From: Bacteroidota bacterium
Lineage (GTDB): Bacteria > Bacteroidota > Bacteroidia > Bacteroidales > JAGONC01
Direction: 5' to 3'
NCBI GenBank assembly: GCA_022711405.1
Contig: JAKLFC010000007.1
Span: forward strand, 1 to 64,000
Length of the DNA stretch: 64,000 nucleotides
The notes under the pieces were generated by a model. The model searched no databases. It was not told the origin of the DNA and worked only from the letters and a program-made list of their open reading frames with translations. Below are positions 2,773 to 62,659 of this stretch, piece by piece; position 1 is the stretch's first letter; each line of letters begins with the position of its first letter. The position numbers were made by a program, and so were the translations under genes.

Positions 2773-2790
2773 AAATGGTATATTGCTCTA

Positions 2791-4125
2791 TTAAGGTAGA
2801 TGGGTCTTCACAAAATGATCAATGATCTGTGAAAGATTCGGGTCGCCAATCTCCTGAAGGTCATAATAGACCCTCGTGCTGGGTTTGTCAATTTTTACGA
2901 TACGCCGGAGATCAATGGGAGTGGCCACGATCACACCCTCGCACTCCGTCCGGGCAATGGTGGCTTCCAGGTCCTTGACCTGCTGATCGCCATATCCCAT
3001 GGCCGGCAGCAGCTGACCAATGTTGGGGTAGATACGGAATGTTTCCGACAGTTTTCCAACCGTATACGGTCTGGGATCTACACAGGCTGCCGCCCCGTAT
3101 TTCCTGGCAGCAACAATACCGGCGCCTATCTTCATTTCTCCGTGGGTGAGCGTGGGTCCGTCCTCGATGACCAGCACCTTCCTGCCCCTGATCACGGAAG
3201 GATCGTCAACACGGATGGGTGAAGCGGCATCCACCACTGTAGCCTTCGGATTTACCCGTGCAATGTTTTCCCTGACGGTCTGGATACCCTCCGGGCTGGC
3301 ACTGTCGATCTTGTTGATCACCACTACATCTGCCGTGCGAAGGTTCACCTCCCCGGGGAAATAACTGACCTCGGTACCCGGCCGGTGAGGATCAGTGACG
3401 GTAATGGACAGATCCGGCTTATAAAATGAAAAATCATTGTTCCCGCCATCCCAAACCACCACATCACAGCCATCGGGGTCATTTTCAGCCGCCCGGAGGA
3501 TGGCTTCATAATCCACACCTGCATAAATCACATTCCCCCTCACCACATGGGGTTCGTATTCTTCCATCTCCTCGATGGTACATTCATGAAAGGCCAGGTC
3601 TTCCAGGGTGGCAAAACGCTGTACCTTCTGTCTGACAAGATCCCCGTAAGGCATGGGATGACGGATGGCAACCACCTTCAATCCCTTTGCCATCAGCAGC
3701 TCGATCACCTTTCGCGATGTCTGGCTCTTCCCGCAACCTGTACGCGTAGCACAAACAGAGATCAGCGGTTTTACACTCTTCACCATCGTATCCCTTGGGC
3801 CGAGCAAAATAAAATTTGCACCTGCCGAATGAACAATGGCACTGAGATTCATGACCTTCGTGTAGGAAACATCACTGTAAGAGAAAACACAATCATCAAC
3901 CTGGTGCTCCCTGATCAGGCCAGTCAGGTCACTCTCGGCATAGATCGGGATCCCTTTTGGATAAAGCTTTCCTGCAAGTTCGGCAGGATACTTCCTGCCT
4001 GCGATGTCGGGTATCTGAGCGGCTGTGAATGCAACCACCTCATACAGATCGTTATCCCTGTAATAGGTGTTGAAATTATGGAAATCCCTTCCTGCAGCTC
4101 CAATGATGATGACTTTTTTTCTCAT
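2791..4125 (-). CDS. P-loop GTPase-like protein of the cyclic 2,3-diphosphoglycerate synthetase type (COG2403-like)
   Basis: 444 residues. It has an N-terminal Rossmann-like half (KVIIIGAAGRDFHNF) and a central P-loop, ATRTGCGKSQT. A WDGGNNDF segment could serve as Walker B, and VINKIDSA is the NKxD guanine-specificity motif. This architecture is that of COG2403 'predicted GTPase' proteins related to cyclic 2,3-diphosphoglycerate synthetase; the in vivo reaction is not established. The frame is open for 33 more codons upstream, but the promoter -7 box lies at 4174-4167. An ATG at 4224 would therefore be upstream of transcription, so I start at 4125. It is the first gene of the pyrBI operon, which suggests a link to carbamoyl-phosphate or pyrimidine metabolism. 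Confidence 0.75.
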   Translation of the reverse strand: MRKKVIIIGAAGRDFHNFNTYYRDNDLYEVVAFTAAQIPDIAGRKYPAELAGKLYPKGIPIYAESDLTGLIREHQVDDCVFSYSDVSYTKVMNLSAIVHSAGANFILLGPRDTMVKSVKPLISVCATRTGCGKSQTSRKVIELLMAKGLKVVAIRHPMPYGDLVRQKVQRFATLEDLAFHECTIEEMEEYEPHVVRGNVIYAGVDYEAILRAAENDPDGCDVVVWDGGNNDFSFYKPDLSITVTDPHRPGTEVSYFPGEVNLRTADVVVINKIDSASPEGIQTVRENIARVNPKATVVDAASPIRVDDPSVIRGRKVLVIEDGPTLTHGEMKIGAGIVAARKYGAAACVDPRPYTVGKLSETFRIYPNIGQLLPAMGYGDQQVKDLEATIARTECEGVIVATPIDLRRIVKIDKPSTRVYYDLQEIGDPNLSQIIDHFVKTHLP

Positions 4126-4166
4126 AAACAAAAGATTGGTTATACGAATAACAAAAACACTTTTTG

Positions 4167-4196
4167 CAAAGGTAAATTTTTCGGCATGTCCGACAA
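4167..4196 (-). promoter_or_regulatory. Promoter of the GTPase-pyrB-pyrI operon
   Basis: On the minus strand TTG (4196-4194), a 19-base spacer and TACCTTTG (4174-4167) match the Bacteroidota -33/-7 pattern. The -7 box lies 41 bases before the ATG at 4125 and decides that start over the one at 4224. Confidence 0.7.
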
Positions 4197-4208
4197 TGAA
4201 AAAAGCGC

Positions 4209-4216
4209 TAATTTTG
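4209..4216 (+). promoter_or_regulatory. -7 box (TAATTTTG) for argS
   Basis: TAATTTTG fits TAnnTTTG and lies 28 bases before the argS ATG. No clear TTG is seen at the -33 distance. It is divergent from the pyrB operon promoter, about 20 bases away. Confidence 0.5.
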
Positions 4217-4244
4217 TCAACCACGCGGATCGAATTATCACCTT

Positions 4245-6032
4245 ATGCTTGATCAAATCCTTGCCCAACAAACCATCGCAGCTGTCAAAGAAATCTTTGA
4301 CACAGATATCGGACAAGAGCTGAACCTGATCCAAAAAACCCGTAAGGAGTTTGATGGTGACCTGACCATAGTGGTCTTTCCGCTGACTAAAATTCTGCGT
4401 AAATCACCGCAGCTCATCGGAGAAGAACTTGGAAAATACCTCCAGACCCATTCCGGAATGGTACAGGCATACCGGGTCGTCTCCGGTTACGTCAATATTA
4501 CCATCAAGCCTTCCTTCTGGAAAGATGTTTTCATCCGGAATTACGGCGATCCATCCTTTGGCATCCTTAAGCCAGCCGCTGAAGATCCGGTGGTCATCGA
4601 ATATTCATCGCCAAACACCAATAAGCCTCTTCATCTGGGGCATATCAGGAATAATCTCATCGGCTACTCCCTGGCCCGTATATTGGGAGCCTGCGGAGAG
4701 AACGTCGTAAAGGTCAACCTGGTCAACGACAGAGGAATACACATCTGTAAATCCATGCTCGCCTGGCAGCGATGGAGCAGGGGAGAAACCCCGGAATCCG
4801 CCGGCATGAAGGGTGACCACCTGATTGGCAAGTACTACGTCCTTTTTGAAAATGCTTACAGGGAACAGGTAAAAGAGCTGGTAGGTGCAGGGATGACAGA
4901 AGAGGAAGCCCTCAGGCAGGCACCTCTGATGGGCGATGCACAGCGCATGCTGAAAAAATGGGAAGAAAGGGATAAGGAAACGCTTGCCCTCTGGCACCGG
5001 ATGAACCAATGGGCATACAATGGCTTTGATGAAACCTACCGGCAGATGGGAGTCGACTTCGACAGAATCTACTATGAATCCGATACCTATCTTCTTGGGA
5101 AAGAACTGGTTGAAGAGGGATTAAGGCAGGGTCTCCTCCAAAGAAAAGAGGACGGATCGGTGTGGGCCGACCTGACCGCCGAGGGGCTGGACTGGAAGCT
5201 TCTGATCCGCTCCGACGGAACTTCTGTTTACATGACCCAGGACCTGGGGACAGCACAAATGAGATACGATGAATTTCACCCAAAAAAACTCATCTATGTC
5301 GTTGGGAATGAACAGATCTATCATTTCGATGTCCTGAAACTCATTTTGAAAAAGCTCGGCAAGAGATGGTCCGACAGCATCTATCATCTTTCGTACGGGA
5401 TGGTGGAACTCCCCGAAGGAAAGATGAAATCCCGCGAAGGCAAGGTCGTCGATGCCGATGACCTGATGCAGGAAATGTTCGTCACGGCTGGGAAAATGAC
5501 GCGTGAACTGGGCAAACTGGAGGATTTCAGCGATGAAGAAGCGTCAGGATTATTCCGGCAGGTGGGACTGGCGGCGTTGAAATATTTCATCCTGAAAGTA
5601 GATCCCATGAAGACCATGGTCTTCAATCCAGAAGAATCCATCGACTTCAACGGTAATACCGGACCTTTTATACAATACACGTATGCCCGTATTCAATCAG
5701 TGCTTCGCAAAGCAGCTGTGCCTGAAATGTCGGGTAACGATTTCTTTTCAATTGATTATCAGCCTATTCCAAAAGAAATATCCCTGATTAAGATCCTGGC
5801 AGTGTTTCCTTCCACTGTCAGAGAAGCTGGTGAGATGTACAGTCCTGCTGTTATTGCAGCCTATGTTTACGATCTGGCCAGGGAATATAACCAGTTCTAC
5901 CACGATCATTCCATCCTGAAAGCAACCGAACCTGCCCAGGTTCATTTCCGCATCGAATTATCCCGCTTTGTAGGCAATGTGATCAAAACAGCCATGGGAT
6001 TGCTCGGAATTGAAGTACCCGAAAAGATGTAA
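4245..6032 (+). CDS. argS: Arginyl-tRNA synthetase
   Basis: Class I aminoacyl-tRNA synthetase that charges tRNA-Arg with arginine in the cytoplasm. 595 residues, full length. The N-terminal additional domain typical of ArgRS is followed by the HIGH motif in the form HLGH (SSPNTNKPLHLGHIRNN, near residue 125). The second signature is MKSREGKVVDADDL, the usual ArgRS replacement for KMSK. The C-terminal DALR-type anticodon-binding domain begins near residue 475 (FIQYTYARIQSVLR) and ends VIKTAMGLLGIEVP. Only one argS is present in the window; the neighbouring tRNA-Arg(UCU) at 22.1 kb would be a substrate. Confidence 0.97.
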   Translation: MLDQILAQQTIAAVKEIFDTDIGQELNLIQKTRKEFDGDLTIVVFPLTKILRKSPQLIGEELGKYLQTHSGMVQAYRVVSGYVNITIKPSFWKDVFIRNYGDPSFGILKPAAEDPVVIEYSSPNTNKPLHLGHIRNNLIGYSLARILGACGENVVKVNLVNDRGIHICKSMLAWQRWSRGETPESAGMKGDHLIGKYYVLFENAYREQVKELVGAGMTEEEALRQAPLMGDAQRMLKKWEERDKETLALWHRMNQWAYNGFDETYRQMGVDFDRIYYESDTYLLGKELVEEGLRQGLLQRKEDGSVWADLTAEGLDWKLLIRSDGTSVYMTQDLGTAQMRYDEFHPKKLIYVVGNEQIYHFDVLKLILKKLGKRWSDSIYHLSYGMVELPEGKMKSREGKVVDADDLMQEMFVTAGKMTRELGKLEDFSDEEASGLFRQVGLAALKYFILKVDPMKTMVFNPEESIDFNGNTGPFIQYTYARIQSVLRKAAVPEMSGNDFFSIDYQPIPKEISLIKILAVFPSTVREAGEMYSPAVIAAYVYDLAREYNQFYHDHSILKATEPAQVHFRIELSRFVGNVIKTAMGLLGIEVPEKM

Positions 6033-6074
6033 AATAATTGACATGTGCGGGTAAGAGAAAATACCCTTGATTAA

Positions 6075-6219
6075 CCAACATACGAACATACGAAGGCGAA
6101 GTAGAATTGAAAGTCGAAGTTGATTGGTGATTAGAAGGAAAAAATCCGAATTCTCCAATCTATTCTAAAATCGATTTCAACTTAAACCTCTACTTCGCCT
6201 TCGTATGTTCGTATGTTGG
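6075..6219. repeat. Long inverted repeat between convergent genes
   Basis: Two perfectly complementary 31-base arms lie at 6075-6105 and 6189-6219, beginning CCAACATACGAACATACGAA. Each arm contains the octamer ACATACGA twice in tandem. The 83-base interior is A/T-rich and only partly self-complementary. It sits between the stop codons of argS and the T9SS protein gene, so it could act as a bidirectional terminator or RNA-stabilising hairpin, or be a non-autonomous repeat. No ORF is inside. Confidence 0.85.
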
Positions 6220-6241
6220 ATATTTAATCCCCTTCTTTTAA

Positions 6242-9200
6242 CTACTGGATCGTGACCTTCTTGGAGTAAGTTCCATCATTTGATTCGACAATGATGAAAT
6301 AAATACCCGCTTCGAGGGAAGAAGTATTGATCTTCACGATCTCATTGGACTCCACATCCTGATCATTGTAGATCATCTGTCCCGTATAGCTCATCATCCG
6401 GATGGATTTAAGCTGAACGGTGGTCATGATGTTCACGTTATCATTGGCCGGGTTCGGATAGATCTTAACCAGTGCGTTATCAATCTCCTTCATGCCGACG
6501 GAGATAACGATGCTTGTTTCGCCACACACGGCCGCTGATTCGCAATCCGTTCCGTAGTTGGCTGTCACACAGTATTCGTACGTGTCATTGGCAAGGCCCA
6601 GATCGGCATAGGAAGTTTCCATGACAGGCGTCTCATTGATGACTTCGCCATTGCGCCATACATTGTATCCCACCAGGGAACGTCCTGCAGCGTTGAAGGT
6701 GGCATTCTGAGCCTGTGGTAAAGTGCCGACGACGGGCTGAGAGATCACAGGATTGCCGTAGTGTTCTACATGGACAGGTCTGACGGGGTTGCCCGGTTGT
6801 GCCATCCAGTCAACATAGAACTGGATATTCCAGTTCAATGAATACCCAAGTCCGCCCATGGTTGTCCAGTCGCCGGATATCCGGATCAGATCGCCTCCGG
6901 TCACAACGGGACCGTTGTCAAAGCCAGCGGGAAATTCGCCGACAGGCTGATTGATACAGGTGTATCCGACATACAGGGCTTCGGCGCCGTCAATCATCAG
7001 AGGATCGTTCAGCTCGACATAGTTCCAGTTCTCGATCGAAGGTGTGACCGACTGTTCGAGCAGTACTCCTTCGCTGTTCCAGATCTTCACGGCATAACCG
7101 GTCATTTCACCCCTCGGGAAAAATGCAATCTTGGTGATGTACATTCCTTCATAGTCAGAGAGGAATTCCGCACTGAAAAGGGCAGATACGTCAAAGGAAC
7201 CGCCATTGTTCAGTCCGATCGCATCGTAATTCAATCCATCGTCCAGGTGTAGCCATTGCGGAAGTTCTCCCGGTGGCAGCCAGGTCAGGTACACATCCGG
7301 TGTTCCGGGTTCGTTGCTGACCTCAAGCTGGTTGATCGGATCAATCGCCTCCACAGATGCGGATACTGCATTGGATGACAGCGATAAGCCTTCATCATAA
7401 ACCGCTTTCACGATATAGGAATAAGAGCCCTCCGTCAATTCAGCATCCGTATAGGATGTTTCAGTCACCGGATCGGGGTTGATCAGGACTTCATCGCGGT
7501 AAATATTGTATCCTTCCAAAACTGCTTTACCGGCAGGTGCTTCCCAGTTCAGAACGATGTCCTTACATTGGGTGGCGGCGGTAAGGTTAGAAGGTGGTAC
7601 AAGCGGTGAAGCTGCCACATTGAATCCGCAGGGAACATATTTCTGCGAATTTTCCGGGTCATTGCTCAGCACATATAATTTACCGGCATAATTTCCCTGT
7701 GGTAGCTGGGAAGCGTCAAAGGAAATGGTCACGTTGGTGGATGCGCCCGGGACAATGGTACCGGAAGCTGGCTCGGCATATAGCCATTGCGCAATAGGTT
7801 CGCCCGTAAGATGGCCGGCAATGTTCCAGTTTGGATAGAATGGCGGATCGCCGACAGCACCGAGGTGACCCCAGCCCACTCCGGTTGACAGATAATCACC
7901 GTTGGGATTCTGCGGTCCGTCATCACAGCCGGGCGTGCCTACCAGGTCAACCTGGGTGAAATTATAGGTGATCCAGATGTCTTCGCCGGTGATCAACACT
8001 GGGTTAGACAATACAATGGTGTTCCAGCTTGTGCCGACAGGAGTGAAATTCTGAGTACGGATCAGCGTACCAGGAGTAGTGGCAGATCCATGTCCGTAAA
8101 TTCTCACAGAGCAGTTTGTTGCTGAAGCATCGCTGATAAAAATCTCCACTGATGTCAGTTCCATACCGGCAAAAGGTGTTGTCGTACCCGCCGGAAAGCG
8201 GGCACCCACTTTGACATCTATGGGTGCTGAATTCCAGTAAATGGAAGAGTAGTTGGTTCCGTCGTCCCACCGTAGCACTCCATCCCTGGTTTCGGGGGAA
8301 GGACCACCTGGCTTCGCATTCGGATCAACCTGAGGTCCCTGGTTGTGCGAAAGTGTCTTGTAAGTAAAGACCTGTTCTGCTTTTAAATTAACACCATTGG
8401 CGCGAACAGCGTCCAGTTCATAGATCGGGAATATTTCCCAGTTTAGGTCGCCATAACCAACGTTCTCAATGTTCAAGGTGCGGGTTTCAATTTCACCGGA
8501 TGTTCCGGAAACATTGAAGAAAATGGGAGAGATCTCGATCGCAGGATCGGTGGGTGCAGCAGTCTGTATGTATTCTACGTCATCCACATAGTAGGTATCC
8601 TGCGTTCCATCGTTGGCACCCGCAAAAAAATCGATACCACCCAGCTGGTTTGTTCCGGGATCGCCGAAGGATTGCAACGACCACTGCCATGTGTGAAGCA
8701 GGGTGCCATCAATGTACATTTCTGCAACATCTTCGTCCAGATTGATGATATGAACCAGGTGTATCCACTGGTCGTGTTCAAACACAAATGGGTAAGGATC
8801 GCTCTGTCCGGCATAAAGTTCTCCGTCTCCGGTGGTTTTGAAATGAACCTGTATGGCCCATTCAATGCCCGGATCCTGGAAATGCTGGAAGTTGTAATAA
8901 CCGCTGAAGCCACTGGCTATATAAATGTAAAAGTTGACTTCATACCCACCGGAAACCTTATCCCCAAGTTTCCATATCAGGTCGGTCTGGCCAGTATGGG
9001 TCGCAGTTTCATCAATGAGGATGGATTTGGTACCGCTGTGGGCATAGGTAGTGACGACCATGGCATCCACCGGCGTACCTTCATCGCCTGGGGTCCACGT
9101 TCCCCACCAATCAGGATTCTCCACCCCGATATAGGATCCCGTGGGATAGGACTCAAAATCGTCCTCATAAAGCACTGTCTGAGAAAAAGCCATCACCGAA

Positions 9201-53067: not shown

Positions 53068-54681
53068 TTATTTCAAGAGTACTTTCTTACCGTCAAGATA
53101 CACACGGTAGAAATGTTCCCCCTCGATCAGCAGGCATTGTTGATGATATTCAGGGTCATGGAAAGGAATATCAATAGGAAAAACTTTACCATTGTACATG
53201 GGAGCGATAAAAGGCACATCGGTGTGCCCTATGACCATGTGGGATACCTTATAAAAGTCGAGTACACGGTCGATTTGTTCCTGAGTGGTTTCCGGAGGCA
53301 GATGCCCATTCCTGAAATATCCCCTGTACCAGAAGGGTCCATAGGTAAACAGAAGCAGGTTGAGGGTTTCGCTGTTCTTTTTATCGTACTCCAGGTTCAG
53401 GTATTTCCTTACCATATGGTTTACTGAATCGATATTCAGATGCTTGGCTATCACCTGGGATGAAATTCCTCCATGTGTGAACAGTATGTCATTGATCCTG
53501 AGCATGGTCTTTTTCGAACGCAACCATTGTCCCAGCACAGTATATGGTGTAAAGAACTGTGAATAAGCAATATCAAAATAATAGCTGAAGAAATTGTTTT
53601 TCTCCGGTTGATAGGCCAGTTCATCGGACAGGGTCATCAGCTCATGATTACCAAGGATATAATGTACGCAGCCACCAGCGTTGAGTGCCTGTCGTTCCAA
53701 TTTATAGATCAGCCATAAACACTCGGTCACCTGATCGCCACGATCGAAGATATCGCCTGTAAACACAAGATGTCCGGTTCCCCATGACCAGTTCAGGTCC
53801 TCATCGATCACATTGTTAACTTGGAGCACTCTGGCCAGGGAGTCATATTGCCCGTGAATATCGCCAACGACAAAGATCTTTTCCACATGATCAAATTCAT
53901 GCGGGTAATGAACAGGATCCCGGTAGATCGTATAGCTGGATGTGTCGAACATGAATCCTTTAAAATGCAGCACACTATCCTTCATATCCATCATATGGTC
54001 TACCATAAGGGTTTGATTGGAAGAACTGTCTCTTTGCAGGTAAATAATAAATATCTGTGTATGGTTGTCCCATATCACATGAGGTCCGTCCTTATAGCCA
54101 GGCACCCGGTATGCCGAGTCCTTTTTCACTACCATGGTCCTGAGGTAGTGGACGATCGTATCCTTATTGCTGGAAAAAGCCATATCGTGAGGCATCCATC
54201 TGCGGTGATTCCTGTGGGATACATCTGAGCCTCTCTGCACCAGCAGCCTGTTCAACCGGAGGGTTCCGTACTTAGCCGCGTAGAACAGGGCCGTATTGCC
54301 CATGCGGTCCACAGGATCAACGCTGGCACCCCGATCAAGCAAATACCTGGATATCAATAGATTGTTATTAATTGCGGCCTCCATCAATGGAGTAATATCA
54401 TCCGAAGGTTTTTCGATGTCGGCTCCATGCCTGACGAGCAAGCGGACCATCTCGTACTTTTCTGCATCAATCGCCGTGTTCAGCAGGGTTCTGTTGGCAT
54501 TTTTACCATAGTACCCGTTGATGTCCAGTCCAGTAGAGATCATGGACTTAACGGCTGTTGTATCCCCATCGCGGATGGCTTTAAAAAGCGATTTCTCCAG
54601 GTCATCGGATTGGCCAAATGCGGATGCTCCGAATAAAACGGATAATATTACTATGATTGATTTGGGCATTAGCAACGACAT
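53068..54681 (-). CDS. Secreted ankyrin-repeat / PPP-type phosphoesterase fusion
   Basis: 537 residues. Signal peptide 1-23 (ends SAFGQ). About 28-190 are ankyrin repeats (NRTLLNTAIDAEKYEMVRLL, DITPLMEAAINNNLLISRYL, GNTALFYAAKYGTLRLNRLL). About 285-537 is a calcineurin-like phosphoesterase close to the PPP/bis-tetraphosphatase group, with all metal motifs: VGDIHGQYDS, TGDIFDRGDQ, LGNHELMTL, FTHGGIS and VIGHTD. It is thus expected to be active and to sit in the periplasm or outside. A hairpin leader element lies at 54696-54722. The CotH-like gene is 98 bases upstream on the same strand. Whether the target is a phosphoprotein or a nucleotide is not known. Confidence 0.85.
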   Translation of the reverse strand: MSLLMPKSIIVILSVLFGASAFGQSDDLEKSLFKAIRDGDTTAVKSMISTGLDINGYYGKNANRTLLNTAIDAEKYEMVRLLVRHGADIEKPSDDITPLMEAAINNNLLISRYLLDRGASVDPVDRMGNTALFYAAKYGTLRLNRLLVQRGSDVSHRNHRRWMPHDMAFSSNKDTIVHYLRTMVVKKDSAYRVPGYKDGPHVIWDNHTQIFIIYLQRDSSSNQTLMVDHMMDMKDSVLHFKGFMFDTSSYTIYRDPVHYPHEFDHVEKIFVVGDIHGQYDSLARVLQVNNVIDEDLNWSWGTGHLVFTGDIFDRGDQVTECLWLIYKLERQALNAGGCVHYILGNHELMTLSDELAYQPEKNNFFSYYFDIAYSQFFTPYTVLGQWLRSKKTMLRINDILFTHGGISSQVIAKHLNIDSVNHMVRKYLNLEYDKKNSETLNLLLFTYGPFWYRGYFRNGHLPPETTQEQIDRVLDFYKVSHMVIGHTDVPFIAPMYNGKVFPIDIPFHDPEYHQQCLLIEGEHFYRVYLDGKKVLLK

Positions 54682-54695
54682 AATTTTCTACCGGA

Positions 54696-54722
54696 CTACA
54701 ATACTTGCACCCCTACGGGGTA
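54696..54722 (-). repeat. Hairpin leader element, copy upstream of the ankyrin/PPP gene
   Basis: On the minus strand: ACCCC, loop GTA, GGGGT, then GCAAGTATTGTAG. It differs at two of 27 positions from the copy at 61942-61968. It ends 14 bases before the ATG at 54681, in the same orientation as the gene. Confidence 0.8.
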
Positions 54723-54750
54723 ATTGAATTTTTTCTATTCATACTGATTG

Positions 54751-54778
54751 TCGACTGCTGACTGTCAACCGCCAACCG
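54751..54778 (-). repeat. GGTTGAC-type heptamer tract
   Basis: On the minus strand GGTTGGC, GGTTGAC, AGTCAGC, AGTCGAC: four consecutive degenerate heptamers, starting two bases after the CotH-like stop codon. Confidence 0.75.
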
Positions 54779-54779
54779 A

Positions 54780-55862
54780 TTACCGTGCCGGCCAGCAGGT
54801 TTTCAGGAATTCTTTCTGCACCATTTTAGGATCGTTGATGATTTCATAGAACTTATCGAGATAGCGCAGGGACCAGTTCAGGCTGCGTTCGTCCAGATAA
54901 GGAAGTCCCTTGTACAAAGCATATATTTCTTCTTTTTTTGATCTGAACAGGTCGAAGCATGCATCGAATTCTTCCTTGGTACGGCAAAAGCCCAGGAACA
55001 CCCTCTGGGTCACGGAAGCGATGTTCAGTTCATCGGCAGGTGCTGCATAGGAGGTATTGACAAGTCCACAATAATCAAAATCATAGGGAATTGCAATGGG
55101 CTCAAGGAAAGGATTGGTCTGGACGATCTTCACATTGTGCTGAACCGAGACTGACCAATCGGGATTACCCACCATGTACATAAAAACTTCCAAAAGATCC
55201 GTGTGGTGCTGATCTGTTCTGTCCTGATGTATATTTTTTGTTTCGATGATCTTCCCTCCTATCCGTTCAGCCATCTGGTTGTCGTTTTCAATAAAAAAAG
55301 CAAACCGCTGTAGCGTATCCATTTTGTTTTCCGGGTCAATATAGGTGATCCTGGCCAGACGGACCCTCAGACTGGTATCGGTCAGCACATTGAAGATCCT
55401 GTACACCAGGTATTCACGTAAGACGTACTGTTCAAATATCTTTTCCGTATTGCTGCAGTGTGTGACCAGTTTCAGGCGCTTCAGATCTTCAAATGGGGTT
55501 GATCTGGATTCCTTTTTATCAAATTTTACGGACAGCGGTGGAAAAACGCAATGTGAGGGATCGCGGCGGTAGTTTCCCCTTGGCCTGATTTCAACCGCTA
55601 GTGTGTCCCAGGAGCCGTCTGGTCGTTTATAGATAGCGGTTCCGTCATGAAAAACCGTGTCGGCATTATCTTTTATCTCTTTGAACATTTCCCTGAAATC
55701 CGTTATGAGGTGTAATTCTACCAGGTCATGGGCGGTAAAGAGAGAGTTCTCCGCATATTTCAGGGATTTTACTTTTTCCTGAGTGTCGTTCTGGCTGAAA
55801 ACGGCATATGGAAGAAGGAAAGATGCTATCAGGATCACAAAAACCGTTGCAGGATTTCTCAT
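54780..55862 (-). CDS. Secreted CotH-like protein (candidate atypical kinase)
   Basis: 360 residues from the Met at 55862. Signal peptide about 1-23 (ends AVFSQ); 13 further in-frame codons upstream carry no signal and are rejected. The order of motifs recalls CotH: VEIRPRGNYRRDPSH, SVKFDKK, LKRLKLVTHCS, YVLREYLVYRIFNVLT, FAFFIEND (equivalent of the Glu-containing strand), then NPDWSVSVQHN and IPYDFDYCGLVN. The DFD would match the DWD-type metal site of CotH kinases. This is a distant resemblance judged by eye. -7 box TATTTTTG at 55906-55899. Next to a secreted PPP-type phosphatase gene on the same strand. Confidence 0.5.
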   Translation of the reverse strand: MRNPATVFVILIASFLLPYAVFSQNDTQEKVKSLKYAENSLFTAHDLVELHLITDFREMFKEIKDNADTVFHDGTAIYKRPDGSWDTLAVEIRPRGNYRRDPSHCVFPPLSVKFDKKESRSTPFEDLKRLKLVTHCSNTEKIFEQYVLREYLVYRIFNVLTDTSLRVRLARITYIDPENKMDTLQRFAFFIENDNQMAERIGGKIIETKNIHQDRTDQHHTDLLEVFMYMVGNPDWSVSVQHNVKIVQTNPFLEPIAIPYDFDYCGLVNTSYAAPADELNIASVTQRVFLGFCRTKEEFDACFDLFRSKKEEIYALYKGLPYLDERSLNWSLRYLDKFYEIINDPKMVQKEFLKTCWPAR

Positions 55863-55941
55863 GAGAATGATGGATTGCCAGCTGAGCTGATGTTTAAACA
55901 AAAATAAATAAAATATGTTTAAAGTGGATGGATGCTCTTAG

Positions 55942-56057
55942 AGGTTGCAGGTTTCAGGTTGCAGGTATCAGGTTTCAGGTTGCAGGTATCAGGTTTCAGG
56001 TTGCAGGTATCAGGTTACAGGTTGCAGGTATTAACCTGTAACTTGCAACTTGAAACC
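55942..56057. repeat. 13-unit AGGTTGC heptamer array with inverted arm
   Basis: Thirteen consecutive heptamers AGGT(T/A)(G/T/A)(C/T) run from 55942 to 56032, mostly in the order AGGTTGC-AGGTATC-AGGTTTC (a 21-base higher-order unit). They are followed at 56033-56057 by about three heptamers in reverse complement, so the end can fold back on the array. It fills most of the divergent spacer between the CotH-like gene and the flavin oxidoreductase gene. Confidence 0.95.
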
Positions 56058-56078
56058 ACTGAATTCAGTCAAATCCCT

Positions 56079-58530: not shown

Positions 58531-59238
58531 TTAATCATCAATTGGCAACGACAGCTTATAAAACTCCTCACTCGTCTCCAGACAATCCACATACGTAACA
58601 GAAGTGTTGTTCAGAGGATTGCCTGTCACGCGGATTCCCGATCGCGTCCTGGTGTGCCCCACGATCTGATGATATCCTCTCAGCGGATCATCGCTGGTCT
58701 CTGCATTGTGCGCCCAGAAAATGCCGCCATCCTCGTGCAATCCACCCCTGATCACGCTGGCATGATACAGGGGCTGATAGTAGTCCCTGAAAAGACGGTT
58801 CAGGGTAGCTGCAAGATCGTTATCCCCGGGAAGAACCTGTTCACGGATATACGTATCATACCAGCGCTGCACAACCCCGGCATGCGTCCACAGGTGATTA
58901 CCAACCTGGAAGGCTGCCTGAAAAAGTCCGCGGTTGGAGGTAAAAATGGAAAAGAGCCGCGATAGCATACTCAACCTGTAACCGGAACAGTAGTGCCGCT
59001 CGTGTCCTCCGTAAAAATAGGCAAGGTCATGATTTCCCATCAACAGGACGATCCTGTCCGGTTGCTGCTTTTTCAGTTCGATGATCTCCTCCAGGTTAGC
59101 GATAATATCCTGGGGGGTAAAATCCCCAGAATCAACGTAGTCCCCGATAAAGACCACCCAGTCCCATTCATCCGTCCGGATCTGCTTCCAGACGGGCGAG
59201 CCATGCAGATCACCAATGGTAATGATATTAGTCATCAC
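58531..59238 (-). CDS. Metallophosphoesterase (calcineurin-like)
   Basis: 235 residues, no signal peptide, cytoplasmic. Metal-binding motifs: ITIGDLHGSPVW, FIGDYVDSGDFT, LLMGNHDLAYFYGG, LWTHAGVV and IVGHTRT. Together they place it in the PPP/ApaH-like group. Likely substrates are dinucleoside polyphosphates or phosphoproteins. It lacks the ankyrin part and signal of the protein at 53068 and is not a close copy. Convergent with the geranylgeranyl-reductase-like gene (28-base gap). M2 is an alternative start. Confidence 0.88.
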   Translation of the reverse strand: MMTNIITIGDLHGSPVWKQIRTDEWDWVVFIGDYVDSGDFTPQDIIANLEEIIELKKQQPDRIVLLMGNHDLAYFYGGHERHYCSGYRLSMLSRLFSIFTSNRGLFQAAFQVGNHLWTHAGVVQRWYDTYIREQVLPGDNDLAATLNRLFRDYYQPLYHASVIRGGLHEDGGIFWAHNAETSDDPLRGYHQIVGHTRTRSGIRVTGNPLNNTSVTYVDCLETSEEFYKLSLPIDD

Positions 59239-59306: not shown

Positions 59307-60050
59307 TTATTTCTTATCCGGCTCAGGTATGTCATCATCATCATCAGTTATCACGATGACCTTGATGATCTCTTCCTTGACCTTCTTGTCCTTTTTACTC
59401 TTGTCACACTGTTCATCATCGACCTTAATCATGATCACTTTTTCACCGTCTTTATCTTTAATGATCTTCGTTTCCCCTTCTTCAGTGATCAGGATCACTT
59501 TCTTGCCATCTCCTTCCTCGATCACCTTCGACTCCCCTTCTTCCGTAATGATCCGTAATACTTTTTCATCATCTCCGCCTTCTTTAATGGTGAATTTCTC
59601 CCCGTCCTTATTGATAATGTAGATCTTTTCAGCCCTGTCGGTGGAATCCGGCTCTTTTCCTATTTCTTCCCAGATCAATTCCTCATCTGAATCCCTGTTC
59701 ACTTCCTTAATAACGACTACTTTCTTTGCTTCTTTTCCGGTTTCAATCCCGACCGCATCCGCTTTTTCGCTGTCAACCTTTACCTTCACTCCCACTTCTC
59801 CCTCAAGATCCTCCATCTCAATCCCGTACTTTTCCTTCATTTCCTTTTTCAATGCCTCATTATCAAAATCCTCTCCATTGAAAGTTGTGTCAAAGGTGCT
59901 CTCTTCGCCATCTTTAACGGTGATCACCTTGACACGGATTTTCTTCTCCGGCTTAACTTCCTGGGAATAAGCGGTTTGCTGGATAAAGACTCCGCATACC
60001 AGCATGGTCAGTGCTACGGTTAAAAAATGTACTCGTGATAGTAGTTTCAT
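59307..60050 (-). CDS. Secreted acidic repeat protein (unknown function)
   Basis: 247 residues, signal peptide 1-29 (ends TAYSQ). The mature part is very rich in Glu, Asp and Lys and contains imperfect repeats of about 17-20 residues: EKVLRIITEEGESKVIEEG, KKVILITEEGETKIIKDKDG, EKVIMIKVDDE. It ends in an Asp run (DDDDDIPEPDKK). A strongly acidic periplasmic or surface protein of this kind might bind cations. Full promoter at 60171-60143. It is divergent from a histidine kinase gene, with three GTTAAA boxes between; it is therefore a likely target of that system. I do not recognise the family. Confidence 0.75.
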   Translation of the reverse strand: MKLLSRVHFLTVALTMLVCGVFIQQTAYSQEVKPEKKIRVKVITVKDGEESTFDTTFNGEDFDNEALKKEMKEKYGIEMEDLEGEVGVKVKVDSEKADAVGIETGKEAKKVVVIKEVNRDSDEELIWEEIGKEPDSTDRAEKIYIINKDGEKFTIKEGGDDEKVLRIITEEGESKVIEEGDGKKVILITEEGETKIIKDKDGEKVIMIKVDDEQCDKSKKDKKVKEEIIKVIVITDDDDDIPEPDKK

Positions 60051-60247: not shown

Positions 60248-61915
60248 GTGAACCGGAAATTGCTCATCATCGTGATCGTATCACTGGTAATATCCCTTAC
60301 CGGAATCATTCTCATCCAGTTATTCTGGATCAGGAATGCCATCAGGGTTAAAGAAGAGCTGTTCGACAACAGTGTCAACCGTGCTCTTCAGGCTACCGCC
60401 AGTGCTCTGGAGATCAAGGATAATTACAGGATCATCAGCAATAAATTTAAAAATCCGGGTGAGGATTCAGCCCAGCTTTTCTGGGAAGACTCCATTGGTT
60501 CTCAAATCAATGTGCACAGGATATCCATTGATTCACTCCAGGACAGATCGTTGCCCGCTGGTCCCGGATTCGTTGCAATTTCAACGTCCGACGAGGACAA
60601 GCATGCATATACTATTAAATGGACTGACAGCGCCTCCAGGAATAAAGCGCTGGTTTACAATGGGGATGAGAAAGTTTTCATGCGGATTGACACACTGAAT
60701 GAAGGGCATGATGACGAAATGATTTTTATCACCCGGCAGAATGGAAACGACGATTCACTCTACATTGTCGTTAACCAGCAGGTCAGGAAAATAAAAACGA
60801 AAAAGGAATCCCTCGAAAAGGTCTTTGAGAAGATGGTGATCGAGGTAACCACCGACCCTGTTCCATTGAATAAAAGGATCCAACTATCCCAGACTCAGGA
60901 CCTGCTCCGGCTGGAGCTTCAAAACCAGGGGATTACACTTCCTTTTGAGTTTGGGGTCTTCACCGGTACAGACAACATGACCCTACCTGTTCACAGCGAA
61001 TCTTTTCATTTGTCGGACAGGCATTCTGCGTATAAAGTGAACCTGTTCCCCAACGATGCCTTTGCCCCTGCTACCTTTCTGGCGCTTAAATTTCCCGATA
61101 AAAGGGCACAACTGCTGCGTTCGGTGTTATGGCTTCTTGCCAGCTCAGCCCTGCTCACACTGTTCATAATTGTCACTTTTGGGATGACAGTATCCTTTAT
61201 CCTGAAACAAAAAAAGATCTCGGACATAAAATCTGATTTCATTAATAATATGACCCATGAGTTCAAGACTCCAATCGCTACCATATCACTTGCAGCGGAC
61301 GCCATTTCCGATGACCATGTTTTGTCTGACAAAAGCAGGGTGAATTATTTTCTTGGGATTATCCGGCAGGAGAACAAACGCATGAACAACCAGGTGGAAA
61401 ATGTGCTGCAGATGGCCCTCCTGGATAAAAAGGATTTCGCGCTTCATTTCGAGTTACTTGATATTCATGAACTCATAAAACAATCCGTGACCCATATCAG
61501 CCTTCAGGTTGAAAAGCTCAGCGGGACCCTTCATTCGGAGCTTCATGCTGAACATCGATGGCTCCAAACCGATCGGATTCATTTCACTAACCTGATCTAC
61601 AACCTGCTGGACAATGCCATCAAGTATTCGCAGGACAAGCCTGAGATCAGGATAACTACCTGGAATACAAAGGGAGGCATCAGCATTTCAGTGGAAGATA
61701 AAGGGATAGGACTTACTCCGGTCGAAAAAAGTAAGATATTTGATAAATTCTACCGCCAGGCAACAGGGAATGTTCATAACGTCAAAGGCTTTGGCCTGGG
61801 GCTGAGCTATGTTAAAGCGATCGTGCTTCTCCACAGGGGCGAAATAACAGTCGATAGTGAAGTTGGCAAGGGAAGCAGGTTTACGGTGTGGTTGCCGGGG
61901 GCGGTTGACGGTTGA
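60248..61915 (+). CDS. Sensor histidine kinase (RprX-like)
   Basis: 555 residues, GTG start. Membrane segments at 5-28 and about 287-318 flank a periplasmic sensor domain of about 255 residues. H box INNMTHEFKTPIATIS (His near 337), N box NLLDNAIKYS, G1 VEDKGIGLTP and G2 GFGLGLSYVKA are intact, so it should be active. Layout and sensor size resemble Bacteroides RprX. The last codons (AVDG and stop) are formed by the GGTTGAC heptamer tract, so the native C-terminus has been changed by the repeat. The response regulator gene follows after 54 bases. Signal unknown; the acidic protein across the spacer could take part. Confidence 0.92.
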   Translation: MNRKLLIIVIVSLVISLTGIILIQLFWIRNAIRVKEELFDNSVNRALQATASALEIKDNYRIISNKFKNPGEDSAQLFWEDSIGSQINVHRISIDSLQDRSLPAGPGFVAISTSDEDKHAYTIKWTDSASRNKALVYNGDEKVFMRIDTLNEGHDDEMIFITRQNGNDDSLYIVVNQQVRKIKTKKESLEKVFEKMVIEVTTDPVPLNKRIQLSQTQDLLRLELQNQGITLPFEFGVFTGTDNMTLPVHSESFHLSDRHSAYKVNLFPNDAFAPATFLALKFPDKRAQLLRSVLWLLASSALLTLFIIVTFGMTVSFILKQKKISDIKSDFINNMTHEFKTPIATISLAADAISDDHVLSDKSRVNYFLGIIRQENKRMNNQVENVLQMALLDKKDFALHFELLDIHELIKQSVTHISLQVEKLSGTLHSELHAEHRWLQTDRIHFTNLIYNLLDNAIKYSQDKPEIRITTWNTKGGISISVEDKGIGLTPVEKSKIFDKFYRQATGNVHNVKGFGLGLSYVKAIVLLHRGEITVDSEVGKGSRFTVWLPGAVDG

Positions 61916-61923
61916 CGGTTGAC
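61902..61923 (+). repeat. GGTTGAC heptamer tract overlapping the kinase stop codon
   Basis: Three tandem GGTTGAC units. The TGA stop of the kinase (61913-61915) lies inside the second. Confidence 0.9.
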
Positions 61924-61941
61924 AATCATAAACAATTCCAC

Positions 61942-61968
61942 TACCCCATAGGGGTACAAGTATTGTAG
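61942..61968 (+). repeat. Hairpin leader element, copy upstream of the response regulator gene
   Basis: ACCCC, loop ATA, GGGGT, then ACAAGTATTGTAG. It ends one base before the ATG at 61970. 25 of 27 positions match the copy at 54696-54722 in the orientation of the downstream gene. Confidence 0.8.
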
Positions 61969-61969
61969 C

Positions 61970-62659
61970 ATGGTAGCGAAAATATTTCTGGTAGAGGATG
62001 ACGAAAATTTCGGATCGGTGTTGAAGCTGTATCTGGAAATGCACAATTACGAAGTGCATTGGGAGATGGATGGCGCACGCGCCATCGCCGATTTTCGGAA
62101 AACGGTTTTCGATATCTGCATCCTGGATGTCATGCTGCCGCATATCGATGGGTTCTCCATTGCCAGGCATATAAAGAAGACCGAACCAGCATTGCCGGTG
62201 ATCTTTCTTACAGCAAAAACACTTAAACAGGATGAGGTTGAAGGATACAGGATCGGTGCTGATGATTACATTAAAAAACCTTTCGATTCAGAGGTTTTGT
62301 TATACAAGATACAGGCAGTACTAAAAAGAAATCCGGGGAAATCAACCTTACTGGAAGATCCACCCTTTTTTCAAATTGGCACCTTTCAATTTCAGTATAC
62401 GACCCGTTGCCTGATACTCGGGAAAAATCAAAAAACACTCTCCCCCAAAGAAGCGGATCTCCTGCACCTGCTCTGTCTTCACATGAACAACGTTCTGTCG
62501 CGTGAAACGGCACTTAAAACCATCTGGGGCAACGACACCTACTTCACGACCCGCTCCATGGATGTCTATATCACAAGGCTACGGAAATACTTTCAGGATG
62601 ATCCCATGATCGAGATTGAGAATATCCATGGCAGCGGGTATCGCCTGATTGCCAGATAA
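61970..62659 (+). CDS. Response regulator, OmpR/PhoB family (RprY-like)
   Basis: 229 residues. Receiver domain 1-120: acidic pocket VEDDEN, phospho-acceptor Asp in ICILDVMLP (near 53), Lys in IKKPFD (near 103). Winged-helix DNA-binding domain about 130-229 (KEADLLHLLCLHMNNVLSRE, TTRSMDVYITRLRKYF, GSGYRL). Partner of the kinase encoded 54 bases upstream; RprY of Bacteroides is the nearest family I recognise. Its own leader is the hairpin element, which may set its level relative to the kinase. The GTTAAA boxes at 60183 are a candidate target. Confidence 0.95.
   Translation: MVAKIFLVEDDENFGSVLKLYLEMHNYEVHWEMDGARAIADFRKTVFDICILDVMLPHIDGFSIARHIKKTEPALPVIFLTAKTLKQDEVEGYRIGADDYIKKPFDSEVLLYKIQAVLKRNPGKSTLLEDPPFFQIGTFQFQYTTRCLILGKNQKTLSPKEADLLHLLCLHMNNVLSRETALKTIWGNDTYFTTRSMDVYITRLRKYFQDDPMIEIENIHGSGYRLIAR

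Follow-up and report, generated by a model that had tools for sequence, protein, structure and literature searches.

The window analyzed here, a 64,000-nucleotide stretch of a Bacteroidota genome, carries two neighboring genes for proteins that are probably exported, a CotH-like kinase candidate (P0002) and an ankyrin-repeat phosphatase (P0001). Both open reading frames are intact and lie on the minus strand, with the P0001 gene downstream of the P0002 gene. The kinase gene ends at position 54780 and that of the phosphatase begins at 54681, leaving the 98 bases between them that the initial annotation reported. The features of the locus are as follows.

55899..55906, minus strand: possible Bacteroidota -7 promoter element TATTTTTG (relaxed motif), upstream of the kinase gene
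54780..55862, minus strand: P0002, CotH-like secreted kinase candidate, 360 aa (open reading frame; 71 non-redundant relatives; AF2 model; kinase and CotH fold matches)
55794..55862, minus strand: predicted signal peptide of P0002, residues 1-23, MRNPATVFVILIASFLLPYAVFS^Q
55158..55160, minus strand: D235 of P0002, predicted catalytic Asp, invariant in 71 sequences and aligned with the N-D motif of CotH (5jd9 D224)
55080..55082, minus strand: D261 of P0002, predicted metal-binding Asp of the YDFD motif, invariant in 71 sequences and aligned with the first Asp of CotH PWDxD (5jd9 D247)
54682..54779, minus strand: intergenic spacer of 98 bases between the P0002 and P0001 genes
53068..54681, minus strand: P0001, secreted ankyrin-repeat and Shewanella-like PPP phosphatase candidate, 537 aa (open reading frame; Pfam; PDB 2z72/1v73, E ~1e-65)
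54613..54681, minus strand: predicted signal peptide of P0001, residues 1-23, MSLLMPKSIIVILSVLFGASAFG^Q
54142..54606, minus strand: ankyrin repeats of P0001, residues about 26-180 (Pfam Ank_2 2.9e-19, Ank_3 and Ank; PDB ankyrin matches)
53080..53904, minus strand: PPP catalytic domain of P0001, residues about 260-534, with GDIHG, GDIFDRG, GNHE, HGG and GHT (Metallophos 1.7e-17)

The TATTTTTG element is the sole minus-strand -7 match between 52.9 and 56.1 kb and has no matching -33 element; the minus strand of the spacer lacks a Bacteroidota-type -7 motif (TAnnTTTG). A -7 element ahead of the kinase gene with no second one in the spacer is compatible with co-transcription, but this is suggestive only and no proof of it. 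Scans for sigma-70 promoters and for terminators were uninformative. Upstream of the kinase gene, positions 55940-56060 are occupied by direct repeats in tandem, each about 21 bases long (caggttgcaggtatcaggttt). A few kilobases from the pair, a second calcineurin-like phosphoesterase, this one leaderless, is encoded at 58531-59238 on the minus strand. A sensor histidine kinase and a response regulator (60248-62659, plus strand) are divergent from the gene for a small secreted acidic protein (59307-60050, minus strand), which is also found near the kinase in relatives. No gene for a substrate of the kinase/phosphatase pair was found.

The initial annotation gave both proteins signal peptides, and on inspection both N termini indeed resemble type I signal peptides without a lipobox. 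A hydrophobic N-terminal stretch, scored in the same way for family members and neighboring open reading frames and a crude measure rather than SignalP, is present in 93 of 103 kinase-like and 35 of 35 phosphatase proteins, versus 405 of 862 neighboring open reading frames.

P0001, first described as a secreted ankyrin/PPP phosphatase, keeps that description and can be placed more sharply. Its catalytic domain can be aligned over its full length with the Shewanella cold-active tyrosine phosphatase (E 9e-66, residues 64-333 of 2z72), and 2z72, 1v73, and 2zbm are the only PDB matches at an E value of 1e-5 or lower, which places it nearest to the Shewanella enzymes rather than to ApaH or the PPPs of eukaryotes; matches to ApaH are weak, and the tyrosine phosphatase alignment is far better. 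The PPP metal ligands are all kept in P0001 and are invariant in 29 partner phosphatases, save H486, which is present in 28 of the 29. Judged by its sequence, P0001 is a Shewanella-like PPP phosphatase (Shelph). The Shewanella enzyme is the founder of this group (PMC535813); its specificity for phosphotyrosine has been reported (PMC5454105, PMC535813), and a 2017 paper described it as the sole metallophosphoesterase until then with demonstrated tyrosine phosphatase activity (PMC5454105). Unlike the enzyme of 1v73/2z72, P0001 appears to be secreted, carries ankyrin repeats at its N terminus as well as a conserved DGP[HY] segment, and is genetically tied to a CotH-like kinase.

P0002 was harder to place. 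Direct sequence searches against Pfam, NCBIfam, and the PDB gave no usable match, a profile built from 71 relatives matched no PDB chain, and P0002 itself does not match the Pfam CotH family (PF08757) at the curated cutoff. The link to CotH therefore required structure models and intermediate sequences. Relatives were collected from the window's order and from named genomes, and the alignment comprises 71 non-redundant sequences, 3 of which have weak PF08757 matches (best, 3.2e-4). In named genomes, relatives occur at no fewer than 578 places, mostly in Bacteroidota; the 80 that were kept also include Gemmatimonadota and one Chlorobiota genome. Twelve residues are invariant across the 71 sequences (R95, G96, R99, C105, C136, E150, R168, E192, R200, D235, N243, and D261), and the two cysteines among them would suit protein folding outside the cytoplasm. 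A CotH profile built from genomes of the window's order matched a relative that is 39% identical to P0002 (L073) at an E value of 1.6e-6 (28.3 bits) and another (L065) at 1.8e-4, while the best control score, over five shuffled copies and one reversed copy of each member, was 7.7 bits. A further family member, in L175, matches both profiles (family, 1.9e-66; CotH, 2.6e-6). In a profile-profile comparison, the P0002 family and CotH are significantly similar around the catalytic motif only, with weak similarity in the N-lobe.

AF2 models of P0002 and L073 reached pLDDT values of 92.9 and 94.0, respectively. All 50 PDB matches listed for the P0002 model are kinases, none of them with an E value below 1e-3, and CotH (5jd9) is absent among these 50; in the viral library BFVD, the top matches include named CotH kinases (probability 1.00, E 2.7e-5 and 1.3e-4). 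For the L073 model, the top PDB matches are Bacillus cereus CotH structures 5jd9 and 5jda (E 2.7e-9 and 7.6e-9), with a probability of 1.00 and a TM score of 0.53 against 5jd9, and the secretory kinase Fam20C (4kqa) ranks sixth. These models predict that the P0002 family has the CotH kinase fold, which is what the initial annotation had proposed.

The proposed DFD metal site likewise holds up as a DFG-like motif, with D261 invariant and D263 nearly so. We take D251 to be the metal-binding aspartate of B. subtilis CotH and D261 of P0002 to be its equivalent; D235 of P0002 would correspond to D228. D224 and D247 of 5jd9 are 23 residues apart, as are D228 and D251 of the B. subtilis protein, of which D228Q is an inactive mutant (PMC7821199). 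Invariance of the catalytic and metal-site residues in 71 sequences argues against loss of function. The designation of P0002 as a CotH-like kinase thus stands as to fold and catalytic residues; because the protein falls outside Pfam CotH as drawn, it is better described as a member of a divergent sister family, with an apparently intact active site, than as a plain CotH. The family resembles CotH (PF08757; B. cereus 5jd9/5jda and B. subtilis) in its kinase-like fold, in N-D...N and PxDxD motifs that are in register, and in a predicted site of action outside the vegetative cytoplasm. It differs in its identity of about 13% across the structural match, in escaping detection by Pfam, in invariant C105 and C136 and an RGxxR motif, and in being paired with a phosphatase outside any spore context.

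The suggested kinase-phosphatase neighborhood is conserved in relatives. Among 97 loci in named genomes, a few of which duplicate one genome, there are 37 kinase-phosphatase pairs, all co-directional, with the phosphatase first in 20 and the kinase first in 17. Several of the pairs overlap by 4 bases, and two loci (L041 and L101) have a phosphatase flanked by a kinase on each side. Mapped onto the kinase tree, the neighbor state takes 9 changes, of which only a few are required by strongly supported branches. Ankyrin repeats accompany 25 of the 37 pairs and are missing from 12, and so they are not essential to the pairing; the role in the partnership first proposed for the repeats of P0001 is reduced to that of an add-on rather than a core part.

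Because the 97 loci were chosen by similarity to the window, we sampled the order evenly, taking 393 genomes. A sample drawn across the phylum was too sparse for a co-occurrence test: its overlap outside the window's genome (1/5) was not significant, and the association was patchy. Within the order, 58 genomes encode the kinase, 54 the phosphatase, and 42 both (Fisher p 2e-32, or 1e-28 without the window's family); these values ignore the relatedness of genomes, and the pair occurs in more than 10 family-level groups. The kinase is without the phosphatase in 16 of 58 genomes and the phosphatase without the kinase in 12 of 54; four lone phosphatases that we examined have no P0002-family kinase nearby. 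The two genes are neighbors in 33 of the 393 genomes, ordered kinase-phosphatase, phosphatase-kinase, or convergently. The convergent arrangement, with gene ends 15-36 bases apart, was seen in four genomes of one family (G493, G591, G674, and G735), and we rejected the generalization that all pairs are co-directional. Convergent genes cannot be co-transcribed and therefore stay neighbors without co-transcription; that the genes have been rearranged yet still adjoin one another points to a functional link rather than inertia. The pairing is real and far beyond chance, a stronger finding than first stated, and a search of open-licence papers yielded no earlier account of a CotH/PPP pairing.

Other genes accompany the kinase in subsets of relatives. 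The membrane protein family DUF4956 is encoded at 13 of the 93 loci surveyed, all but one of them paired (p 5e-6), so that it is found at 12 of 32 sampled paired loci. Elsewhere in the window's own genome (L177; contig C12, 436000-446000), positions 2776-7262 encode a canonical CotH with a beta-helix, then DUF4956, and then a VTC polyphosphate polymerase domain. A cluster of CotH, DUF4956, and VTC has been described beside Gram-positive Pel polysaccharide loci (PMC7112168). DUF4956 joins both window-type pairs and canonical CotH, and therefore the window's CotH-like family and true CotH share a partner. The window-type pairs differ from those clusters in that a Shelph takes part and no VTC polymerase lies beside the pairs examined. 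In Pontibacter and Hymenobacter, related genera with no Shelph near the kinase, a gene of the alkaline phosphatase superfamily (Phosphodiest) is directly upstream of the kinase gene at 17 loci (L071, L083, L088, L102, L105, L108, L111, L112, L125-L129, L133, L135, L139, and L141). Many of these Phosphodiest proteins carry a lipobox-like Cys, and they may represent a different phosphatase in the role of the Shelph. At five further loci (L078, L080, L082, L084, and L107), a gene for a membrane protein with weak similarity to bestrophin is directly upstream of the kinase gene; the bestrophin match stays below the cutoff, and we rejected a lasting three-gene unit.

We consider it probable that the pair constitutes a periplasmic phosphorylation module in which a CotH-type kinase and a Shelph phosphatase act on the same target or pathway. 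The divergent kinase would move phosphate onto an envelope or exported target, and the Shelph would take phosphate off the same target or act in the same pathway; ankyrin repeats, where present, could add substrate or partner binding, and the DUF4956 membrane protein may belong to the module in many relatives. Catalytic activity, a shared substrate, and reversibility of phosphorylation on one protein are what we infer for this module. CotH is a Ser/Thr kinase, whereas the best-characterized Shelph is Tyr-specific, and therefore the phosphatase may not simply undo what the kinase does: with specificities so mismatched, one enzyme may have changed its preference, or the phosphatase may have a different target. 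The kinase-like enzyme might instead act on a non-protein acceptor (for example, a glycan of the surface, a lipid, or a metabolite that is exported), with the phosphatase trimming or recycling the product. This reading would accommodate the resemblance of the fold to lipid kinases such as PI4K and PI3K, the DUF4956 and CotH of Gram-positive Pel clusters (PMC7112168), and the VTC polyphosphate polymerase that adjoins DUF4956 and CotH in the window's own genome. We nevertheless regard it as unlikely: CotH, a protein kinase, is the closest solved structure, the closest solved relative of the phosphatase is a protein tyrosine phosphatase, and no polysaccharide gene adjoins the pair in the window.

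Diadenosine tetraphosphatases are among the PPP relatives (PMC535813), and Shelphs of the same family also occur without the P0002-type kinase, which, with the weak ApaH matches, would fit a general secreted phosphohydrolase engaged, for example, in phosphate scavenging or nucleotide hydrolysis, one that has its regulation or pathway in common with the kinase but not its substrate. The far better alignment of P0001 with the tyrosine phosphatase and an adjacency that survives several rearrangements, including convergent pairs, make this improbable. Some protein-kinase-like folds do other chemistry, as in AMP transfer by SelO, and given the weak N-lobe similarity the CotH-like protein could be such a transferase or a pseudokinase that regulates the phosphatase. 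That is very improbable, since its catalytic and metal-site residues are invariant and CotH itself phosphorylates its substrates (PMC7821199).

A periplasmic phosphorylation module would be of interest in several respects. Phosphorylation of exported bacterial proteins is seen in proteomes, while a dedicated secreted kinase with a matched phosphatase is hardly known outside spores. The periplasm is not expected to contain free ATP, and a compact, widespread pair with clear catalytic residues makes testable both which Bacteroidota envelope proteins or glycans are phosphorylated and what serves as the donor where ATP is scarce. In a complete extracytoplasmic phospho-signaling system, membrane proteins such as DUF4956 would supply the CotH-like kinase with a phosphate donor, either nucleotide or polyphosphate, brought across the inner membrane, and the Shelph would reset the mark. 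We give such a system little credence at present; if true, it would be a bacterial counterpart of the Fam20C secretory kinase system. Fam20C, the Golgi casein kinase, is likewise an atypical secretory kinase, but it is eukaryotic and has no genetic link to a phosphatase. The P0002 relatives also extend the CotH kinases by a large family that Pfam misses. Across contigs C1, C11, C14, C26, and C12, the window's own genome encodes five more true CotH (PF08757) proteins, four of them longer than 800 aa.
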